Shown in pieces: positions 39,990-58,838 of a stretch of 64,000 bases of DNA. The position numbers were made by a program, and so were the translations under genes. The notes beneath the pieces are model-generated. The model did not search any database. It was not told the DNA's origin and saw only the letters and a list, made by a program, of their open reading frames with translations. Every line of letters starts with the position of its first letter. The stretch's first letter is position 1. Source of the DNA: Bradyrhizobium sp. (GTDB lineage Bacteria; Pseudomonadota; Alphaproteobacteria; Rhizobiales; Xanthobacteraceae); assembly GCF_022844465.1 (NCBI RefSeq), contig NZ_JALHLP010000001.1:992001-1056000 (forward strand). The letters run 5' to 3'.

Positions 39990-40003
39990 TTGACCCAAAT
40001 CAA
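39990..40003. promoter_or_regulatory. FNR/FixK-type box between the Mla operon and the DUF883 gene
   Basis: TTGACCCAAATCAA matches TTGA-N6-TCAA. For the plus strand it predicts a start near 40038 and a 23-base leader to ATG 40061; for the minus strand the leader to the MlaE-like gene would be about 72 bases. Confidence 0.75.
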
Positions 40004-40060: not shown

Positions 40061-40336
40061 ATGTTCAGATCAGGCGAGTTGGGGACCGAGTTGCAGGCGC
40101 TCAAACGCGAACTGTCGCGCCTGCTGGACACGACAACGGATGACGTATTCGACGCCGCCAAGAGCCACGCCGAATCGCTCGCCGAACAGATCAAGACCGC
40201 CGTAAGCGAACTCGGCGAGACCCTGGGCGAGGAAGAGGAACACATCGAACAATTGATAGCGGAGCGGCCGATTGCAGCGCTGGCATCGGCCTTTGCGCTC
40301 GGCCTCGCCATTGGTTTCATGCTGAGGAGGCACTGA
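40061..40336 (+). CDS. DUF883/ElaB-YqjD-like membrane protein
   Basis: A 91-residue protein with a helical N-terminal part (ELQALKRELSRLLDTTTDDVFDAAKSHAESLAEQIKTAV) and a C-terminal membrane segment with a basic end (RPIAALASAFALGLAIGFMLRRH). This is the layout of the ElaB/YqjD/DUF883 family, tail-anchored inner-membrane proteins linked in E. coli to ribosome binding in stationary phase. ATG 40061 is chosen because the ORF-track start at 39947 lies upstream of the FNR/FixK box. The next gene begins three bases later. Confidence 0.82.
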   Translation: MFRSGELGTELQALKRELSRLLDTTTDDVFDAAKSHAESLAEQIKTAVSELGETLGEEEEHIEQLIAERPIAALASAFALGLAIGFMLRRH

Positions 40337-40338
40337 AG

Positions 40339-40827
40339 GTGAACAGCGAGAACGTCGTCAGGCAACTGCGCGCGTTGTGGCGAACCGATCGCATCATCGC
40401 GGAAATCCGGATGCGGCACATGCTGATCGGGCTCGGGCTGCGGGCGTTTGCCGCGCTGATCGCAGCCTTCGGCCTGCTGATGCTGGAACTGTCGGCCTAT
40501 TTCGCGCTGGTGCAGATCTGGAGCGCGATCCTGGCCGCGGCGATCCTTGGCGCCGTCAATTTCGTGATCGCGATCGTGCTGTTCGTGGTTGCAGGAAGAC
40601 CGGCTGCGGGACGCGAACTCGAACTCGCCTCTGAAATTCACGGCCTGGCGGTCGAGGCGTTGCAAAACGAGGCTCGCACCTTGCAATCGCATTTCGCCGG
40701 CATGGTCAGCCATCCCCTGAACAACGTGCTGCCATTGGTGCTGTCGCCGCTGATCACGCTCATCGTCAGGAGCTTGAGGAAGTCCAGGGTCGCCACTCCG
40801 GCTGGTACCCCGACTGAACATAAATGA
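40339..40827 (+). CDS. YqjE/phage-holin-3_6-like membrane protein
   Basis: A 162-residue protein with two central transmembrane segments (LGLRAFAALIAAFGLLMLELSAYFALV and AAAILGAVNFVIAIVLFVVAG) and amphipathic ends. This matches the putative holin/YqjE family, which commonly pairs with DUF883/YqjD genes, so the name implies no phage origin. The start is GTG 40339 with GGAGG eight bases upstream. The DUF883-YqjE pair precedes an unknown gene and a P-type ATPase; all four run the same way behind one FNR/FixK box. Confidence 0.8.
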   Translation: MNSENVVRQLRALWRTDRIIAEIRMRHMLIGLGLRAFAALIAAFGLLMLELSAYFALVQIWSAILAAAILGAVNFVIAIVLFVVAGRPAAGRELELASEIHGLAVEALQNEARTLQSHFAGMVSHPLNNVLPLVLSPLITLIVRSLRKSRVATPAGTPTEHK

Positions 40828-40876
40828 TCGAGACAATACATCGACCGCGCGCCCGCAAATCATGGAGACACAAGAG

Positions 40877-41284
40877 ATGTCCACCCGCCCGAAACCGATC
40901 CTGAACGCTTCCCTGCCCAAGCAGTTCCGGCATATTCGGATAGCTCTCGCCCGCGAACCCGGCCATCCCGAGGGCGATGTCGAGGTCGGCTATATCTTGG
41001 TGGCGCCGCTCGACGCTGACGACCGCATCGACGCGAAATTATGGCGCGAACATAAGGATGCCTGCCGGGTCACGCGCCAGCGTCCGGGTGAGCCGGACCG
41101 GCACGGCCATCTCATTCACCGGCCGGGCGGCGGCTGGGGCTTTCACTATGACGGCGAAACCAGCCAGCCCGATGAGGTCGGGTATCACTTCGCGGACGAG
41201 CGCTTCGTCGTCGGCGAATACGTTTCGATCAACGAGCGCGGCAAGATGCACACCTACCGGGTGACGACAGTGTCACATCTCTAA
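40877..41284 (+). CDS. Conserved hypothetical protein
   Basis: A 135-residue soluble protein I do not recognise. It starts MSTRPKPILNASLPKQFRHI and continues with GYILVAPLDADDRIDAKLWREHKDACRVTRQRPGEPDRHGHLIHRPGGGWGFHYDGE, with many His, Asp and Tyr residues and a small beta-rich appearance. ATG 40877 has GGAGAC nine bases upstream; the ATG at 40862 lacks a site. It is placed between the YqjE-like gene and a P-type ATPase, three bases before the latter, and so may assist that pump or share its regulation. Confidence 0.75.
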   Translation: MSTRPKPILNASLPKQFRHIRIALAREPGHPEGDVEVGYILVAPLDADDRIDAKLWREHKDACRVTRQRPGEPDRHGHLIHRPGGGWGFHYDGETSQPDEVGYHFADERFVVGEYVSINERGKMHTYRVTTVSHL

Positions 41285-41287
41285 CCG

Positions 41288-43831
41288 ATGACGGCGTTCG
41301 CCGGTCTAAGCGAGGCGGACGCACAGGCACGGCTGCAGGCCGAGGGACACAACGAACTCCCCCAATCCGATCGGCGTACACCGTTTCGAATAGCGATCGA
41401 GGTGGTGCGCGAGCCGATGCTGGCGCTGCTCCTGGTCGGCGGCATCGTGTACCTGGCGCTCGGAGATCTAAAGGAGGCGATCATCCTGGTCGCCTTCGCG
41501 ACGATGTCGATCGTGATCACCGTGGTGCAGGAGAGCCGCACGGAGCGGGTTCTGGAGGCGTTACGCGACCTTACGAGTCCCCGTGCGTTGGTCATCCGCG
41601 ACGGTCGACGCCGGCGAATCGCCGGCCGGGACGTCGTGCGCGGCGACCTGATCATTCTTTCGGAAGGTGACCGGGTGGCCGCCGACGCCGTGCTTCTGCA
41701 TTGCCAGGACATGCAGGTCGATGAATCCACCCTGACCGGAGAGTCCGTCCCCGTGCGAAAAGTCGCATGGGACGATCGGGCGGGAAGCGGGCTTCGGCGC
41801 CCTGGAGGCGATGATCTGCCGCAGGTGTTCTCGGGCTCGCTGGTGGTGCGCGGCTCGGGAACGGCTGAGGTGACCGCCACCGGCCAGCGCAGCGAGATTG
41901 GCAAGATCGGCCAATCGCTGGTCGCTCTGGACATCGAGCCTCCGCGCCTGCAGGCGCAGACCCGACGCCTTGTCCGCCTGTTTGCCATCCTCGGCGGCGT
42001 GGTCTGCGTGCTGGCGGTCCTGCTTTACGGGATCACGCGCGGGGGCTGGCTGGACGCCGTGCTGGCCGGAGTTGCGCTCGGCATGTCGATGCTGCCGGAA
42101 GAGTTTCCGGTCGTCCTCACCGTCTTCATGGCCATGGGTGCGTGGCGAATTTCGCTGGCGCGGGTACTCACCCGACGGGCGGCGGCGATCGAAACCCTGG
42201 GCTCCGCGACCGTGCTGTGTACCGACAAGACCGGAACCCTGACCGAGAACCGGATGACGATCGTCGAGATGCGGCTGAAAGACGGTCTCGCGCTTCGTCC
42301 GCAGCACGGGACGGAAATGCCGGCGCCGTTCCGGACGCTGGGCGAGTTTGGCCTGCTCGCGAGCGCGCCGGAGCCGTTCGATCCGATGGAGCAGGCATTC
42401 CATGCCCTGGCGCGCGAGCGGTTGGCCGACGCCGGCTACCGGCATGCGGACTGGAAGCTGGTGCATAGCTACGGCCTTCGGCCGGACCTGCTCGCGATAA
42501 CCAATATCTGGCAGCCAAACGGCGATCGGCACGCATCCGTCGTCGCCACCAAGGGCGCGCCTGAAGCGATCGCGTCCCTTTGCAGACTGAGCGCCGCCGA
42601 CCGCGCGGCGCTGTCGCGGTCGGTAGACGCGATGGCCTCCGCGGGCCTGCGCGTGCTGGGTGTCGCGCGCGCCGCGCATGCGGGAGCCGATTGGCCGGAT
42701 TCGCCGCGCGAATTGGCGTTCGAGGTCCTCGGACTCGTCGGCCTGGCCGATCCACTGCGGGCTGGCGTCGTCGAGGCTGTCCGCGAATGCCGGTCGGCCG
42801 GTATCAAGGCCGTGATGATCACCGGCGACTACCCGGCGACCGCAACAGCGATCGCGCATCAGGCCGGCCTCGAACGCGGCGAAGTCGTCACCGGCGAACA
42901 ACTCGAGGAGTTGAGCGCTGCGGAATTGGCCGGCCGGGTGGAAACGACGCACGTCTTCGCCCGGATCATGCCGGAGCAGAAACTTCGCATCGTCAACGCC
43001 TACAAGGAGAACGGCGAGATCGTGGCCATGACCGGCGACGGCGTCAACGATGCCCCTTCGCTGAAGGCGGCCCATATCGGCATCGCCATGGGCGGGCGCG
43101 GCACCGATGTAGCGCGCGAGGCATCGGCGATCGTGCTGCTCGACGACGATTTCGGCTCGATCGTCAAGGCGGTGCGCCTCGGCCGCCGCATCTACGACAA
43201 TCTGCGTAAGGCCATGAGCTTCATACTCGCCGTTCACGTGCCGATCGCGGGACTGGCCCTGCTGCCGCTGCTGTTCGGCCTGCCCCTCCTGTTCGGGCCG
43301 ATCCATATCGCGTTCCTCGAAATGGTGATCGACCCGGTCTGCTCGCTGGTGTTCGAGGCCGAAACCGAGGAAGACGATGTCATGCGCCGACCCCCGCGCG
43401 ATCCCGACGAGCCGCTGTTCTCATGGCCGCTGGTCGCCTGGAGCGCGCTGCAGGGAGCGCTGGCCTTTGCGCTCGTCGCCGCCATCTACGTCATCGCGCT
43501 CCGATCCGACATGCCAGTGCCGGAAGTGCGGGCGCTGGCATTCGTCTCGCTCGTCGCGGTGTTCGTCAGCTTGATCCTCGTCAACCGCTCCTTCAGCGCC
43601 TCACTGCTGACCGCGCTGCGGCGGCCAAACCGCACCCTGGCGGCGGTACTTGCCGTCGTCGCCGCGATCCTCGCCGTTGTCCTGCTCTGGCCGACGGCAA
43701 GCAGGCTCTTTACTTTCGGGCCCCTGCACGCCGGCGATCTCGCCCTGGCGCTCGGCGCCGGCGCAACCGCGCTGGTGCTCCTCGAAGCGCTGAAGCCGGT
43801 ACTACGCCCTTGGATCCAGTCCCGGAACTGA
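41288..43831 (+). CDS. Cation-translocating P-type ATPase (P2/P3-like)
   Basis: An 847-residue P-type ATPase. It has the N-terminal cation-ATPase domain (LSEADAQARLQAEGHNELPQ), actuator motif DESTLTGESVPV, membrane-4 motif SMLPEEFPVVL (residues 268-277), phosphorylation loop CTDKTGTLTENRM (Asp313) and hinge GDGVNDAPSLKAAHIGIAMG, then about six C-terminal helices. Ca2+ pumps of the P2A group have PEGLP and Na/K pumps PEGLL; PEEFP is different, so the transported ion cannot be assigned from it. It starts three bases after the unknown gene and is probably part of the FNR/FixK-controlled transcript from 40.04 kb. Confidence 0.88.
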   Translation: MTAFAGLSEADAQARLQAEGHNELPQSDRRTPFRIAIEVVREPMLALLLVGGIVYLALGDLKEAIILVAFATMSIVITVVQESRTERVLEALRDLTSPRALVIRDGRRRRIAGRDVVRGDLIILSEGDRVAADAVLLHCQDMQVDESTLTGESVPVRKVAWDDRAGSGLRRPGGDDLPQVFSGSLVVRGSGTAEVTATGQRSEIGKIGQSLVALDIEPPRLQAQTRRLVRLFAILGGVVCVLAVLLYGITRGGWLDAVLAGVALGMSMLPEEFPVVLTVFMAMGAWRISLARVLTRRAAAIETLGSATVLCTDKTGTLTENRMTIVEMRLKDGLALRPQHGTEMPAPFRTLGEFGLLASAPEPFDPMEQAFHALARERLADAGYRHADWKLVHSYGLRPDLLAITNIWQPNGDRHASVVATKGAPEAIASLCRLSAADRAALSRSVDAMASAGLRVLGVARAAHAGADWPDSPRELAFEVLGLVGLADPLRAGVVEAVRECRSAGIKAVMITGDYPATATAIAHQAGLERGEVVTGEQLEELSAAELAGRVETTHVFARIMPEQKLRIVNAYKENGEIVAMTGDGVNDAPSLKAAHIGIAMGGRGTDVAREASAIVLLDDDFGSIVKAVRLGRRIYDNLRKAMSFILAVHVPIAGLALLPLLFGLPLLFGPIHIAFLEMVIDPVCSLVFEAETEEDDVMRRPPRDPDEPLFSWPLVAWSALQGALAFALVAAIYVIALRSDMPVPEVRALAFVSLVAVFVSLILVNRSFSASLLTALRRPNRTLAAVLAVVAAILAVVLLWPTASRLFTFGPLHAGDLALALGAGATALVLLEALKPVLRPWIQSRN

Positions 43832-43844
43832 TACCTCCAGCCCC

Positions 43845-43858
43845 TTGCGATGAATCAA
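43845..43858 (+). promoter_or_regulatory. Variant FNR/FixK-type box before the first UspA gene
   Basis: TTGCGATGAATCAA keeps TTG and ATCAA with the correct spacing but has CG in place of AY in the left half. Its centre is 57 bases before the ATG at 43909, predicting a leader of about 16 bases. The near-identical TTGCGATGCATCAA at 54339 supports it as a real variant. Confidence 0.55.
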
Positions 43859-43908
43859 ATGCGCCGGCCGACAGGACGCTAGATTGTGTCGCGCAAAAGG
43901 AGAATCTG

Positions 43909-44748
43909 ATGGCATTCAAGGATATCTTGCTCACGCTGACCAGCTATCCCGACCCGACCCCGGCGCTGGTGGTGGAGGACGCGGCTTCGATCGCCGCCGC
44001 TTTCGGCGCTCACCTTGCCGCCGTTGCCTGCGAGGCGCATGTCGATATCCCCGGGCATTTCCTGTCCGGCTCGATCGCCGATGTCCCCGGAATGATCGCG
44101 CGCGAAGCCGACAAGAGCCGCAGAAACGCCAAAGACCTGCTGGCTGCGTTCGACGCCGCCGCCGAGAAAGCCGGCCTTCTCCACGAAACCTATCTTGAGA
44201 AATGCGCGACTTTCGCTGTGCCGGACCTGCTGGTCGATTATGCCAGGCTTCGCGACCTCACCATCGTGCCCGTACCGGAAAGCTACGACCAGTGGTATGC
44301 CGAAACGGTAATATTCGGATCGGGCCGGCCAACCCTTGTGCTGCCCGAAAGCCCCCGCCCGCGGCCGTTTGAGCTCAAAACCGTTGCGGTCGCCTGGGAC
44401 TTCAGCCGCGCGGCGTCCCGGGCGGTGTCCGACGCGATTCCCATGCTCGAAAAAGCCAGCAAGGTACGCATCGTCACCGTCACCAATGAGAAGAAGCTGG
44501 ACAGCAAGCATTCGGCGGAGGAACTGGCCAAGAACCTGGCGCGCCATGGGATCGATGTGGTGCTGGACAAGGTCGATGCCGACGGCCGGCCGATCGGCGA
44601 GGTACTTGAGGCCTATTGCGTTGCGCACCGGGTCGACGTTCTCGTGATGGGCGCCTATGGGCACTCACGATGGCGCGAATTCGTTCTGGGTGGCGCAACC
44701 AAGAGCCTGTTGTCGAAGCCGCCGCTCCCGATCCTGTTTTCGCATTGA
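43909..44748 (+). CDS. Universal stress protein, tandem-domain type (first copy)
   Basis: A 279-residue protein with two Usp-like halves. The C-terminal half has [27 protein letters not shown], the nucleotide-binding pattern G-x2-G-x9-G, ending [12 protein letters not shown] 43909 has AAAAGGAG seven bases upstream; the ORF-track version from 43423 runs back into the P-type ATPase. It lies 77 bases after the ATPase and 37 before the phosphorylase gene, so it may head the transcript of the phosphorylase-PRPP synthetase-nuclease trio. Its role in low-oxygen survival is inferred. Confidence 0.88.
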
Positions 44749-44785
44749 CACACCGCCAGCGGCCTTGAAACGCCGCGGAGTCCAG

Positions 44786-46339
44786 ATGGCCGAAGGCAGC
44801 GATACGGACAATTCCCGCCCGCCACTGAAAGTCCGCCGCGTCAGTCTCGACACCGGACGCGAGAACATCGTGGTGATCTCGCGTCACTCCAGCGCGCTGC
44901 GGCCGGAAATATTCCGCGGCTTCAGCCGGGTCGAACTGAAGCGTGGCGCGAAAGCGCTGCTTGCGACGCTCCTGATCACGGACGACGACGCGCTGGTCGG
45001 ATCCGACGAAATCGGGCTTTCCGAGCCGGCATTTCGGCGCTTTGGCGAAGCTGCCGGCAGCCTGGTCACGGTCAGCCCCGCCGCCTCACCTGAAAGCCTC
45101 GATGCAGTTCGCGGCAAGATTCAGGGGCGGGCGTTCAAGCCGGCCGAAATCGACGCCATCATCAACGACCTCTCGCATTATCGCTACTCGGACATGGAGA
45201 TCGCCGCATTCCTGATTGGCTCTGCGAGTTTCATGACCAGCGGCGAGCTTCTCGCCCTGGTCCGGGCGATGGCCGCGGCCGGGACCCAGCTGACATGGCC
45301 GAACCCGATCGTCGTCGACAAGCATTGCATCGGCGGGATACCCGGAAACCGCACGTCCATGATCGTCGTCCCGATCGTCGCAGCGCACGGCCTCACCATT
45401 CCCAAAACCTCGTCGCGCGCGATCACCTCGCCCGCCGGTACCGCCGACACCATGGAAGTTCTGGCCCGGGTCGACGTATCGGCCGAGGAGATGAAAGAGA
45501 TCGTCGCCGCGTGCCGCGGTTGCCTGATCTGGGGCGGGCACGTCAATCTGTCACCGGCCGACGACATTCTCATTTCCGTCGAACGCCCGCTGTGTATCGA
45601 TACCCGCGAGCAGATGGTTGCCTCGATCATGTCCAAAAAGCTCGCGGCTGGCTCGACCCATCTCCTGATCGACCTGCCGGTCGGTCCAACGGCAAAGCTG
45701 GCGAACGCCACCGAAGCGATGCGGCTGCGCAAACTGTTTGAGTTCGTCGGCGATCATTTCGGCATCGCGGTCGAGGTGATCACCACCGATGGCCGCCAGC
45801 CGATCGGCAACGGCATCGGGCCGGTTCTCGAGGCCGAGGACGTCATGGCTGTCCTTGCCAACGAGGCGAACGCACCCGCCGACCTTCGCGAAAAATCGCT
45901 GCGGCTCGCCGCGCACCTCCTGGAATACGACCCGCAGCTTCGCGGCGGAACGGGTTACGCGCGCGCCCGCGACTTGCTCGAGAGCGGCGCGGCCTTGAAG
46001 AAGATGCAGGGGATCATCGACGCCCAGGGGCCCTCGGCCTGCCGCAACGATATCGGCAGACTGACCTTCGATGTCCGTGCCGGCGGTGACGGCGACGTTT
46101 CCGAAATCGACTGCCTGCAATTGAACCGTCTGGCGCGAACCGCAGGCGCCCCGATCGACAAGGGGGCGGGCATCAAGCTGTTCCGCAAGATCGGCGATCG
46201 CGTCGAGAAAGGGCAGCCGCTCTATCGAATTCACGCCTACGACCAGGCCGAACTCGACCTCGCCGTTGCCGCCGCCAAACGCAACAGCGGCTATGCGATC
46301 GGCGCCCGGCATCCGGCATCCAGAGAGACGGCGCCATGA
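44786..46339 (+). CDS. AMP phosphorylase / thymidine phosphorylase family enzyme
   Basis: A 517-residue nucleoside or nucleotide phosphorylase. The extra N-terminal domain (about residues 15-100) and the core [48 protein letters not shown] match the long AMP-phosphorylase type best known from archaea, rather than the shorter DeoA. That type converts AMP and phosphate to adenine and ribose-1,5-bisphosphate. ATG 44786 has GGAG five bases upstream; the ORF-track start at 44657 is inside the Usp gene. Its TGA overlaps the ATG of the PRPP-synthetase gene. AMP as substrate is a family inference. Confidence 0.87.
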
Positions 46340-47259
46340 GCGCCGCCATTCAGAGCCTGCCATCGTCCTCGCGCGACGCGGCACGCCTCGCCGCGCGGCT
46401 CGACATCCCCTTCAACGAGATCACCATCCATACCTTTCCCGACGGCGAAATGCGGGTGACCACCTGTCCGGCAGCCGCCACGACCATCATCTACGCTTCG
46501 CTCGACCGGCCAAACGACAAGCTCATTGCGCTGGCGCTCGCCGTCGAAGCGCTGCGGCGCGGCGGCGCGAAACGTCTCGTGCTGGTAGCGCCCTATCTGT
46601 GCTACATGCGGCAAGATACGGCCTTCCATGCCGGCGAGGCGATCAGCCAGAAGGTCATCGGCCTGTTCCTCGCGCGTTGCGCGGACCGCGTCATCACGGT
46701 CGATGCGCATCTGCATCGCACGCCCGACATCGGGGCCGTGTTTCCCGGCATCGAGTCCGATAATCTGTCGGCCGGGCCTGCGATATCGGAAACGCTGCGC
46801 AAGACCGGCCTAGATCCCACGACGGTGTTAGCGGGACCGGATGCGGAATCCCTGCCCTGGGTCCGCAATCTCGCCGGCCGGCTTGGCCTGTCGCATACCG
46901 TTGCTCAAAAGATCCGCCGCGGCGACCGGTCCGTCGCCATCACCTATCCAGATCCAGCGCGCATTGCCGGCCGCCCGGCGCTGATCGTGGACGACATCGT
47001 CTCATCCGGCGGCACCATCATCGCCTGCGCCAACGCGCTCATCGCGGCCGGCGCAATCACCATCGATGCGGTGGTCACGCACGCGCTGTTCTCGGAACAA
47101 CTGTGCCGGGAGATGACCTCATCAGGCATCCGCTCGATCCGATCGACCTATAGCGTTCCCCATTCCACCAACGCCATTTCGCTCGATGACCTGTTTGTCG
47201 ATGCCCTCAACGGCGAACTGATGCGCGCGGGCACTGCGGAGATTTCACGATGGGAGTGA
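46336..47259 (+). CDS. Ribose-phosphate pyrophosphokinase (PRPP synthetase) homologue
   Basis: A 307-residue Prs-family protein. FPDGEMRV near residues 35-42, PYLCYMRQD (86-94), DAHLHRTP (123-130) and the PRPP-binding loop [14 protein letters not shown] (215-228) are all present. The loop differs from the DMVDTGGT of housekeeping Prs, and the divergence suggests a paralogue with a specialised role. It makes PRPP from ribose-5-phosphate and ATP, or a related reaction. It overlaps the phosphorylase by four bases and the nuclease gene by ten, so the three are probably made in fixed proportion. Confidence 0.88.
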
Positions 47260-48842
47260 CCATCCGGTTTTGCGGCGCGGCGCGTACCGTCACGGGCTCG
47301 TGCTATCTGTTCGAGACCGGCGCGGGACGCTTTCTGGTAGATTGCGGCCTGTTTCAGGGACAGAAAACCCTGAAGGAACTGAACTATAGGGACTTTCCGT
47401 TTCGCCCCACCGAGATCGATGCGGTGCTGCTTACTCACGCCCACATCGATCACAGCGGGCTGCTGCCCAAACTCGTGCGCGACGGCTTCGCCGGCCGGAT
47501 TCACGCGACGCGCGGCACCATCGACCTGTGCTCATACATGCTGCCAGACGCCGGCAGCATCCAGGAATCGGAGGTCCTGGCGCTGAACCGGCGTAACGCC
47601 GCCCGCGGACGCGCCCAGGTCGATCCGATCTATACCCAGGCCGACGCCATCGCTTCGCTGCAATCCTTCACCCCGGTCGAGTACGAAACATGGATCGACG
47701 TGATGTCAGGCGTTCGCGCACGCTACTGGAATGCCGGACATCTGCTCGGCTCCGCCTCGATCGAGATCGAGTTTACCGACGGAAGTACGTCACGAAAGCC
47801 GATGCGCGTGCTGGCATCTGGCGACATCGGACCGGACGCGAAACTGCTGCAGCCAGATCCCGACGCGCCCGCGGGCTTCGACCATGTGATCTGCGAATCG
47901 ACATATGGCGACCGGGAGCGGCCTGCGACCACGCCCGATGCACGCCGCGCGCGTCTGGCCGAGGAGGTCCGCGACGCCGCTGCGCGCAAGGGCGCGCTGC
48001 TGATTCCGGCCTTTGCGGTCGAACGCACCCAGGAACTTCTGGTCGACCTGGTCGCGCTGATGGAACGCGGCGACCTTCCCCCTGCTCCGATTTTTCTGGA
48101 TTCGCCGTTGGCGATCCGCGCCACCGAGGTGTTCCGCAAGCACGCCGAAAGCCTTGATCCCCAGGTCGACCTCCAACGGCTGTTGAGTTCGAGCCAGTTG
48201 CGGTTCACCGAAACGGTCGACGAGAGCAAGGCGATTGCGAGGTTGACCGGCTTTCATATCGTTATCGCAGCCAGCGGCATGTGCGACGCCGGGCGTATCC
48301 GTCACCATCTCAGAAACTGGCTTTGGAACGCCAAAGCCACGGTGCTGCTGGTCGGATTTCAGGCCCGGGGGACGCTTGGCCGGTTCTTGGTCGATGGCGC
48401 AAAGGCCGTGCGTATCCAGGGCAACGAGATCAAGGTCGCGGCAAGCATCCGCAGCATCGACGACTATTCCGGACACGCCGACGGAGCGGAATTGGCGCGA
48501 TGGATCGGCGCGCGCCGACCGATACGGCGCGGCCTGTTTCTGGTCCATGGCGAAGAGCCGGCCGTTGCCGGCCTTGCCGAGCGGGTTGCCGAACGCATCG
48601 TTCCGGCAGCGAAGGTGTTTCAACCGCTGCTGGATGACGTCTACGAATTGTCGGCCGCCGTGCCGATGCCGCTTGACGCCGCCCGCCGCCGCCGTCTGGC
48701 GCCCGAGGCCGTGGTGGCGCTCGACTGGCACAACGACATGTCGAAGCTCGTCCTCGACATCAACGACCGGATCGAGGCCGCCGCCGACGACCGCGCTCGC
48801 GGCGTCATTATCCGGCGCCTGCGGCGCGCGCTGGAGGAATAG
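47250..48842 (+). CDS. Metallo-beta-lactamase fold RNA-processing nuclease (beta-CASP type)
   Basis: A 530-residue MBL-fold protein of the CPSF/YSH1-like class. The metal motif is LTHAHIDHSGLLPKL (His63, His65, Asp67, His68), with NAGHLLGSASIEIE and ESTYGDRERP downstream, then beta-CASP motifs including FAVERTQELL, IAASGMCDAGRIRHHL and YSGHADGAELARWI. The family acts on RNA as endo- or exonuclease. Its ATG lies inside the end of the PRPP-synthetase gene (10-base overlap). With the phosphorylase it suggests an RNA or nucleotide recycling module. It is convergent with the acyl-CoA synthetase gene. Confidence 0.88.
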   Translation: MGVTIRFCGAARTVTGSCYLFETGAGRFLVDCGLFQGQKTLKELNYRDFPFRPTEIDAVLLTHAHIDHSGLLPKLVRDGFAGRIHATRGTIDLCSYMLPDAGSIQESEVLALNRRNAARGRAQVDPIYTQADAIASLQSFTPVEYETWIDVMSGVRARYWNAGHLLGSASIEIEFTDGSTSRKPMRVLASGDIGPDAKLLQPDPDAPAGFDHVICESTYGDRERPATTPDARRARLAEEVRDAAARKGALLIPAFAVERTQELLVDLVALMERGDLPPAPIFLDSPLAIRATEVFRKHAESLDPQVDLQRLLSSSQLRFTETVDESKAIARLTGFHIVIAASGMCDAGRIRHHLRNWLWNAKATVLLVGFQARGTLGRFLVDGAKAVRIQGNEIKVAASIRSIDDYSGHADGAELARWIGARRPIRRGLFLVHGEEPAVAGLAERVAERIVPAAKVFQPLLDDVYELSAAVPMPLDAARRRRLAPEAVVALDWHNDMSKLVLDINDRIEAAADDRARGVIIRRLRRALEE

Positions 48843-58824: not shown

Positions 58825-58838
58825 TTGATCCTCGTCAA
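58825..58838. promoter_or_regulatory. FNR/FixK-type box shared by adh and hsp20
   Basis: TTGATCCTCGTCAA matches TTGA-N6-TCAA. Activation at -41.5 gives leaders of about 22 bases to adh (minus) and 39 bases to hsp20 (plus), so it could serve both genes. Confidence 0.76.

Follow-up and report, generated by a model that had tools for sequence, protein, structure and literature searches.

A Bradyrhizobium gene pair that may lead from nucleoside monophosphates through ribose-1,5-bisphosphate to phosphoribosyl pyrophosphate

Phosphorylase, Prs and nuclease genes

We analyzed a stretch of 64,000 nucleotides from Bradyrhizobium sp. (assembly GCF_022844465.1, contig NZ_JALHLP010000001.1, positions 992,001 to 1,056,000 of the forward strand), referred to below as the window, for three adjoining genes that encode a phosphorylase, a divergent ribose-phosphate diphosphokinase (Prs) and a beta-CASP nuclease. 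An earlier reading of the same DNA made without database searches (the sequence-only reading) had described the three genes as overlapping, and this was confirmed: the phosphorylase and Prs genes share 4 bases (ATGA) and the Prs and nuclease genes share 10. Window coordinates are as follows.

44786-46339, + strand: phosphorylase of the nucleoside monophosphate (NMP) phosphorylase type, 517 amino acids (TIGR02645; best PDB match 4ga5; ligand residues kept)
46336-47259, + strand: divergent Prs of the PRK07199 subfamily, 307 amino acids (NF005537; catalytic residues kept)
47250-48842, + strand: beta-CASP metallo-nuclease of the RNase TTHA0252 kind, 530 amino acids, an optional member (Pfam domains, PDB match and motifs)

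The phosphorylase, whose family is labeled 'thymidine phosphorylase family protein' in other records, scored 703.9 bits against TIGR02645 (cut-off 434.6) and 701.3 bits against PRK04350 (cut-off 434). NMP phosphorylases that form ribose-1,5-bisphosphate (R15P) are known from archaea, where an NMP and inorganic phosphate are converted to the base and R15P (PMC9700705). The best solved relative of the window protein is such an enzyme, the adenosine monophosphate (AMP) phosphorylase TK0352 of Thermococcus kodakarensis (4ga5, E value 6e-104), with homology over the full length, including the N-terminal domain, and shared ligand residues. The residues that we take to bind ligand or act in catalysis in the archaeal enzyme (G168, S194-S199, T203, D256, S264 and K288) all have equivalents in the window protein and recur in all 62 non-fused sequences from bacteria, the exceptions being one S for T203 and one S for A196. 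Archaeal Glu250 and Arg251 are also conserved among these sequences, as Glu266 (62/62) and Arg267 (60/62); TK0352 differs in having Val where the bacterial phosphorylases have Lys179. Because the protein is of the NMP-phosphorylase type and keeps every annotated ligand residue, it should yield R15P from NMPs, and the earlier proposal of a phosphorylase with this product is supported.

The Prs scored 360.8 bits against the PRK07199 subfamily model NF005537 (cut-off 322), and in whole genomes the members of this subfamily (261-432 bits) separated cleanly from canonical Prs proteins (168 bits or less). It belongs to the same family as the canonical synthases of phosphoribosyl pyrophosphate (PRPP), such as E. 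coli Prs and M. jannaschii Prs (1u9y), and shares their ATP-site and catalytic residues, but forms a subfamily with invariant residues of its own. The catalytic Lys and Arg, the metal-binding His and the Asp pair of the PRPP loop are present in the window protein (K192, R194, H125, D219 and D220) and were kept in 35 or 36 of 36 Prs sequences; in E. coli chain numbering, K195, R197, D171, D221 and D222 were conserved in all 36 divergent sequences. Near-invariant positions specific to the subfamily are H127, R128, E171, S172, W175, S223, H276 and N279 (window numbering). In the loop for ribose 5-phosphate (R5P), Ser replaces Asp225, as it also does in M. jannaschii Prs. Genomes with the divergent Prs already have a normal one.

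The third protein contains the Pfam domains Lactamase_B, Beta-Casp and RMMBL and the motifs HAHIDH, SGHAD and VHGE, which identify it as a beta-CASP protein. It is closest to the RNase TTHA0252 (PDB 2dkf, E value 1e-70), which it matches over 440 residues with all metallo-beta-lactamase (MBL) and beta-CASP motifs shared; the predicted nuclease of the window differs in having about 80 additional residues at the C terminus. Another RMMBL protein in the source genome is a separate protein. Identity with the Cas14 nuclease of Type VII CRISPR systems was considered and rejected, since the score against NF045584 was 338 bits and the cut-off is 800.

Conservation of the pair and the exchange of Prs for PhnN

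A sample of 398 Pseudomonadota genomes contained 47 with a full-length-type phosphorylase match, 44 with a PRK07199 Prs and 42 with both, so the pair was found together in roughly one in ten. Divergent Prs was present in 42 of the 47 phosphorylase genomes versus 2 of the 351 without phosphorylase, and phosphorylase in 42 of the 44 divergent-Prs genomes versus 5 of the remaining 354 (Fisher test 1e-48, a value that ignores relatedness). The two genes adjoin in nearly all loci, and their arrangement is not a product of chance. The nuclease gene occurs in about half of the loci: it follows the pair in Bradyrhizobium-type loci, precedes it in another large group and is missing from the remaining loci. 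Since a comparable nuclease was absent genome-wide from nine phosphorylase-Prs genomes and was located elsewhere in the genome in others, the core consists of phosphorylase and Prs, with the nuclease as an accessory; the variable position of the nuclease and these absences rule it out as an obligatory part. The sequence-only reading had asked whether all three genes co-occur, which holds strongly for phosphorylase and Prs but for the nuclease in only about half of the loci, and its placement of the nuclease as the first step of a route gives way to that of an optional accessory. Clean loss of prs was seen in several Bradyrhizobium loci (L101, L112, L198, L199), where the phosphorylase and nuclease alignments lie 18-73 bases apart.

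Further evidence came from phosphorylase genomes that lack the divergent Prs. PhnN is a kinase that converts R15P to PRPP; its fold is unrelated to that of Prs, and its known roles lie in phosphonate degradation and in an E. coli side route leading to NAD, with no nucleotide phosphorylase unit among them. Four of the phosphorylases without divergent Prs in the 398-genome sample carry an N-terminal PhnN domain (TIGR02322, 164-186 bits), and the fifth genome of this kind (G210) has a broken phosphorylase. An independent same-order sample added 27 new phosphorylase genomes, 16 with divergent Prs and 11 without, and of the latter nine have the PhnN fusion and two a standalone PhnN. Eight further genomes, selected because prs was missing beside the phosphorylase, comprise two with Prs elsewhere and six with a PhnN. 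Altogether 13 PhnN-phosphorylase fusions were found (164-209 bits, cut-off 156), all in Prs-lacking genomes and none in the 58 divergent-Prs genomes, and each of the 81 genomes whose phosphorylase is intact has divergent Prs or PhnN. In one clade, then, the same phosphorylase is fused to PhnN in place of the divergent Prs. Because the fusion partner is a known R15P-to-PRPP kinase, it points to R15P as the product of the phosphorylase and to PRPP as its fate; the sugar phosphate, whose destination had earlier been left unspecified, is most likely routed to PRPP.

The fused proteins are annotated as PhnN (L067, L072, L076, L080, L188-L193, L195-L197; L202 5500-7653). In genome G552, one phosphorylase is accompanied by a fragment of divergent prs (L194 6485-6817) and a separate PhnN-fused phosphorylase is encoded elsewhere, possibly a transition state. 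As for standalone PhnN, outside the order it was present in 4/4 Prs-lacking versus 6/39 Prs-carrying genomes, the Prs-lacking ones having been picked for a missing adjacent prs. The source genome has a standalone PhnN (C1:1161522, 202.7 bits) about 120 kb away, neither adjacent nor fused to the phosphorylase.

In 9 of the 13 fusion loci the gene directly upstream encodes NadC, a PRPP-using enzyme (TIGR00078, 313-327 bits in the three tested). On plasmid NZ_LR594669 of Variovorax sp. SRS16, for example, nadC is followed by the gene of a 717 amino acid protein that bears no annotation other than PhnN, and then by that of a TctC binding protein. Quinolinate is reportedly bound by Bug27, a TctC protein whose Variovorax orthologs have nadC and phnN beside them (PMC11452294); the main text of that report does not mention a phosphorylase. 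NadC would convert quinolinate and PRPP to nicotinate mononucleotide (NaMN), CO2 and pyrophosphate, the fused phosphorylase domain would split NaMN with inorganic phosphate into nicotinate and R15P, and the PhnN domain would restore PRPP from R15P and ATP. These operons may in this way run a quinolinate-to-nicotinate cycle in which PRPP is catalytic. In the fused clade Glu266 is replaced by Thr, Asn or Val, and 5 of 13 sequences have lost the Asp equivalent to D256; these changes would fit an altered base, as a pyridinium leaves as neutral pyridine and an acid would not be needed. The fused branch predicts a new route by which quinolinate could be broken down and shows that the present annotation overlooks half of the protein, the phosphorylase.

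Proposed route and alternative explanations

The proposed core consists of two steps. The phosphorylase, like its archaeal relative, would cleave an NMP with inorganic phosphate to the base and R15P, a well-supported prediction, and the divergent Prs, which occupies the place that PhnN holds elsewhere, may then convert R15P to PRPP. The donor in the second step would be either ATP, as for PhnN, with release of ADP, or ADP, with release of AMP that the first step could reuse. Ribosyl phosphate would thus be kept activated for the synthesis of bases, NAD or amino acids rather than passing through an isomerase to Rubisco. The family and position of the beta-CASP nuclease suggest that, where present, it feeds the route, probably with NMPs released from RNA. 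We consider this two-enzyme core from NMP through R15P to PRPP, with its optional feeder, moderately probable. The suggestion in the sequence-only reading that a divergent Prs handles the sugar phosphate has gained support as probable, and we infer that its substrate is R15P.

A more specific and tentative version, which we would not yet expect to hold in full, makes the PRK07199 Prs an R15P phosphotransferase and not a textbook PRPP synthetase, possibly with ADP as donor. Together with the phosphorylase it would turn NMPs into PRPP, AMP serving as a catalytic intermediate, in an energy-sparing low-oxygen programme, and the sister NadC-PhnN-phosphorylase operons would recycle PRPP in turning quinolinate into nicotinate. 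The ADP variant (R15P + ADP to PRPP + AMP) would share its products and leaving group with the normal reaction, one phosphate out of register.

Several observations weigh against the proposed core. The phosphorylase scored 490.3 bits against the AMP phosphorylase equivalog TIGR03327 (AMP_phos), below its cut-off of 535, and the protein, which by its residues appears to work like an AMP phosphorylase, is not classed as a member of that model. The divergent Prs retains every canonical catalytic residue and may be no more than an enzyme for R5P. All PhnN fusions fall into one clade and go back to one event, which took place in a different metabolic context, so the p-values for mutual exclusion of fusion and Prs overstate the independence of the cases. 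Standalone PhnN occurs in 17 of 20 phosphorylase-less genomes of the same order, and since it is so common there, finding it in Bradyrhizobium genomes without the Prs carries little weight; it is a weak candidate for the replacement of Prs in that genus. Two genomes, G330 and G362, carry divergent Prs without phosphorylase, and their orphan prs genes (L200, L201) have no informative neighbor. Finally, across the family only 6 of 122 clusters are preceded by an FNR-type box (background 1.1%).

The retained catalytic residues lend themselves to an alternative in which the phosphorylase makes R15P and the Prs works as an ordinary R5P diphosphokinase, with R15P dephosphorylated or used by another enzyme (in the source genome the standalone PhnN could do so) and with the linkage reflecting shared nucleotide salvage. 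This is possible but in our view unlikely: an ordinary enzyme would duplicate the normal Prs of these genomes, 33 of 46 divergent-Prs genomes have no PhnN over the cut-off, which would leave R15P without a known consumer, and the subfamily has invariant residues of its own, among them H127, R128, E171, S172 and W175. Adjoining genes would also be expected if the phosphorylase drained the AMP made by Prs (R5P + ATP to PRPP + AMP) and so pulled PRPP synthesis, with R15P as a by-product, AMP being both the product of one enzyme and a substrate of an AMP phosphorylase. PhnN, however, makes ADP and no AMP, yet consumes R15P, so that the fusion would be senseless under such an arrangement, and the R15P isomerase that might clear the by-product was not found over the cut-off in any of 57 genomes (TIGR00511; 141 bits in the source genome, cut-off 314). 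We therefore rate AMP drainage as improbable.

It is very improbable that the phosphorylase is an ordinary thymidine or pyrimidine nucleoside phosphorylase (PyNP), as the database names have it. Fold and name are shared and pyrimidine phosphorylases match at E values of 1e-38 and weaker, but the scores against TIGR02644 (190.7 bits, cut-off 409), TIGR02643 (143 bits, cut-off 571) and PRK05820 all lie far below cut-off, and an extra N-terminal domain and a sister clade fused to PhnN also speak against it. Moreover, Arg168 of PyNP, its base-contacting arginine, aligns to Glu266 of the window protein, and this Glu is shared with archaeal AMP phosphorylase. Even less credible is the archaeal NMP pathway, in which an R15P isomerase is followed by Rubisco. 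The sequence-only reading had no isomerase or Rubisco in view; the isomerase indeed did not appear over the cut-off, but a Rubisco large subunit, the one point in favor of this pathway, is encoded in the source genome 430 kb away. The isomerase search exceeded its cut-off in three control genomes, and the Rubisco large subunit, present in 22 of the 42 phosphorylase-Prs genomes and absent from 20, is for that reason not a regular partner. Compared with the archaeal pentose bisphosphate pathway, the bacterial set has no R15P isomerase over the cut-off and is coupled to Prs or PhnN.

A literature search, mostly outside subscription journals, found the bacterial phosphorylase-Prs unit nowhere described as a pathway and present only as entries in gene lists, although an earlier mention is possible; within the same scope no description of the NadC/PhnN-phosphorylase operon was found. 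If the proposed core is true, it provides a function for the large 'thymidine phosphorylase family protein' family and for a PRPP-synthetase subfamily. It would also mean that bacteria draw PRPP directly from nucleotide-derived R15P, in a branch distinct from the archaeal isomerase-Rubisco route, and would link this branch to the low-oxygen programme that FixK2 controls in soybean symbionts.

Low-oxygen control and gene neighborhood

The trio ends a run of same-strand genes (40061-48842) with the following additional features.

39990-40003, + strand: FNR/FixK-type box TTGACCCAAATCAA (pattern scan, sequence read; predicted function)
41288-43831, + strand: P-type cation ATPase, an open reading frame of the run and a recurrent neighbor (26 loci)
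about 43909-44748, + strand: universal stress protein (Usp) gene (Pfam Usp), ending 37 bases before the phosphorylase gene

The box lies about 58 bases upstream of position 40061, the likely first start codon of the run, and the Usp gene probably shares a transcription unit with the trio. Thirteen FNR/FixK-like boxes with at most one mismatch occur in the window between 29214 and 58838, versus 0.96 expected, and this part of the window resembles an island of low-oxygen regulon genes. In B. diazoefficiens, bll3117 (phosphorylase), bll3116 (Prs) and bll3115 (MBL) were taken as orthologs because of their product names, the order of the genes and the high identity among Bradyrhizobium loci. They are predicted to form an operon, which has a FixK2 box at -74, and deletion of fixK2 changed bll3117 by -6.6-fold and bll3115 by -30.6-fold (PMC9104804). 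Under microoxia (0.5% O2) the log2 change in protein was 2.9 for bll3115, 4.4 for bll3116 and 2.1 for bll3117, and transcripts rose 15.4-fold, 7.7-fold and 5.1-fold, respectively (PMC6515984). The low-oxygen setting proposed earlier is thus upheld by the FixK2-dependent, microoxia-induced ortholog operon and the excess of boxes, and the Bradyrhizobium operon would be switched on at low oxygen via FixK2, as published for the ortholog. A family-wide conserved FNR/FixK box was rejected on the count of 6 in 122 loci, which makes oxygen control lineage-specific and not universal.

The source genome, at 5.0 Mb, belongs to a genus with several genomes of 6-9 Mb, and of the named genera Bradyrhizobium, Afipia and Rhodopseudomonas are closest to it. 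The set is also carried by conjugative plasmids of Bradyrhizobium septentrionale and Phenylobacterium zucineum (L203, L204), and the gene order that includes Usp recurs on the B. septentrionale plasmid. The 14-mer TTGATCCTCGTCAA occurs twice in the window, at 43571-43584, inside the cation ATPase gene, and at 58825-58838.

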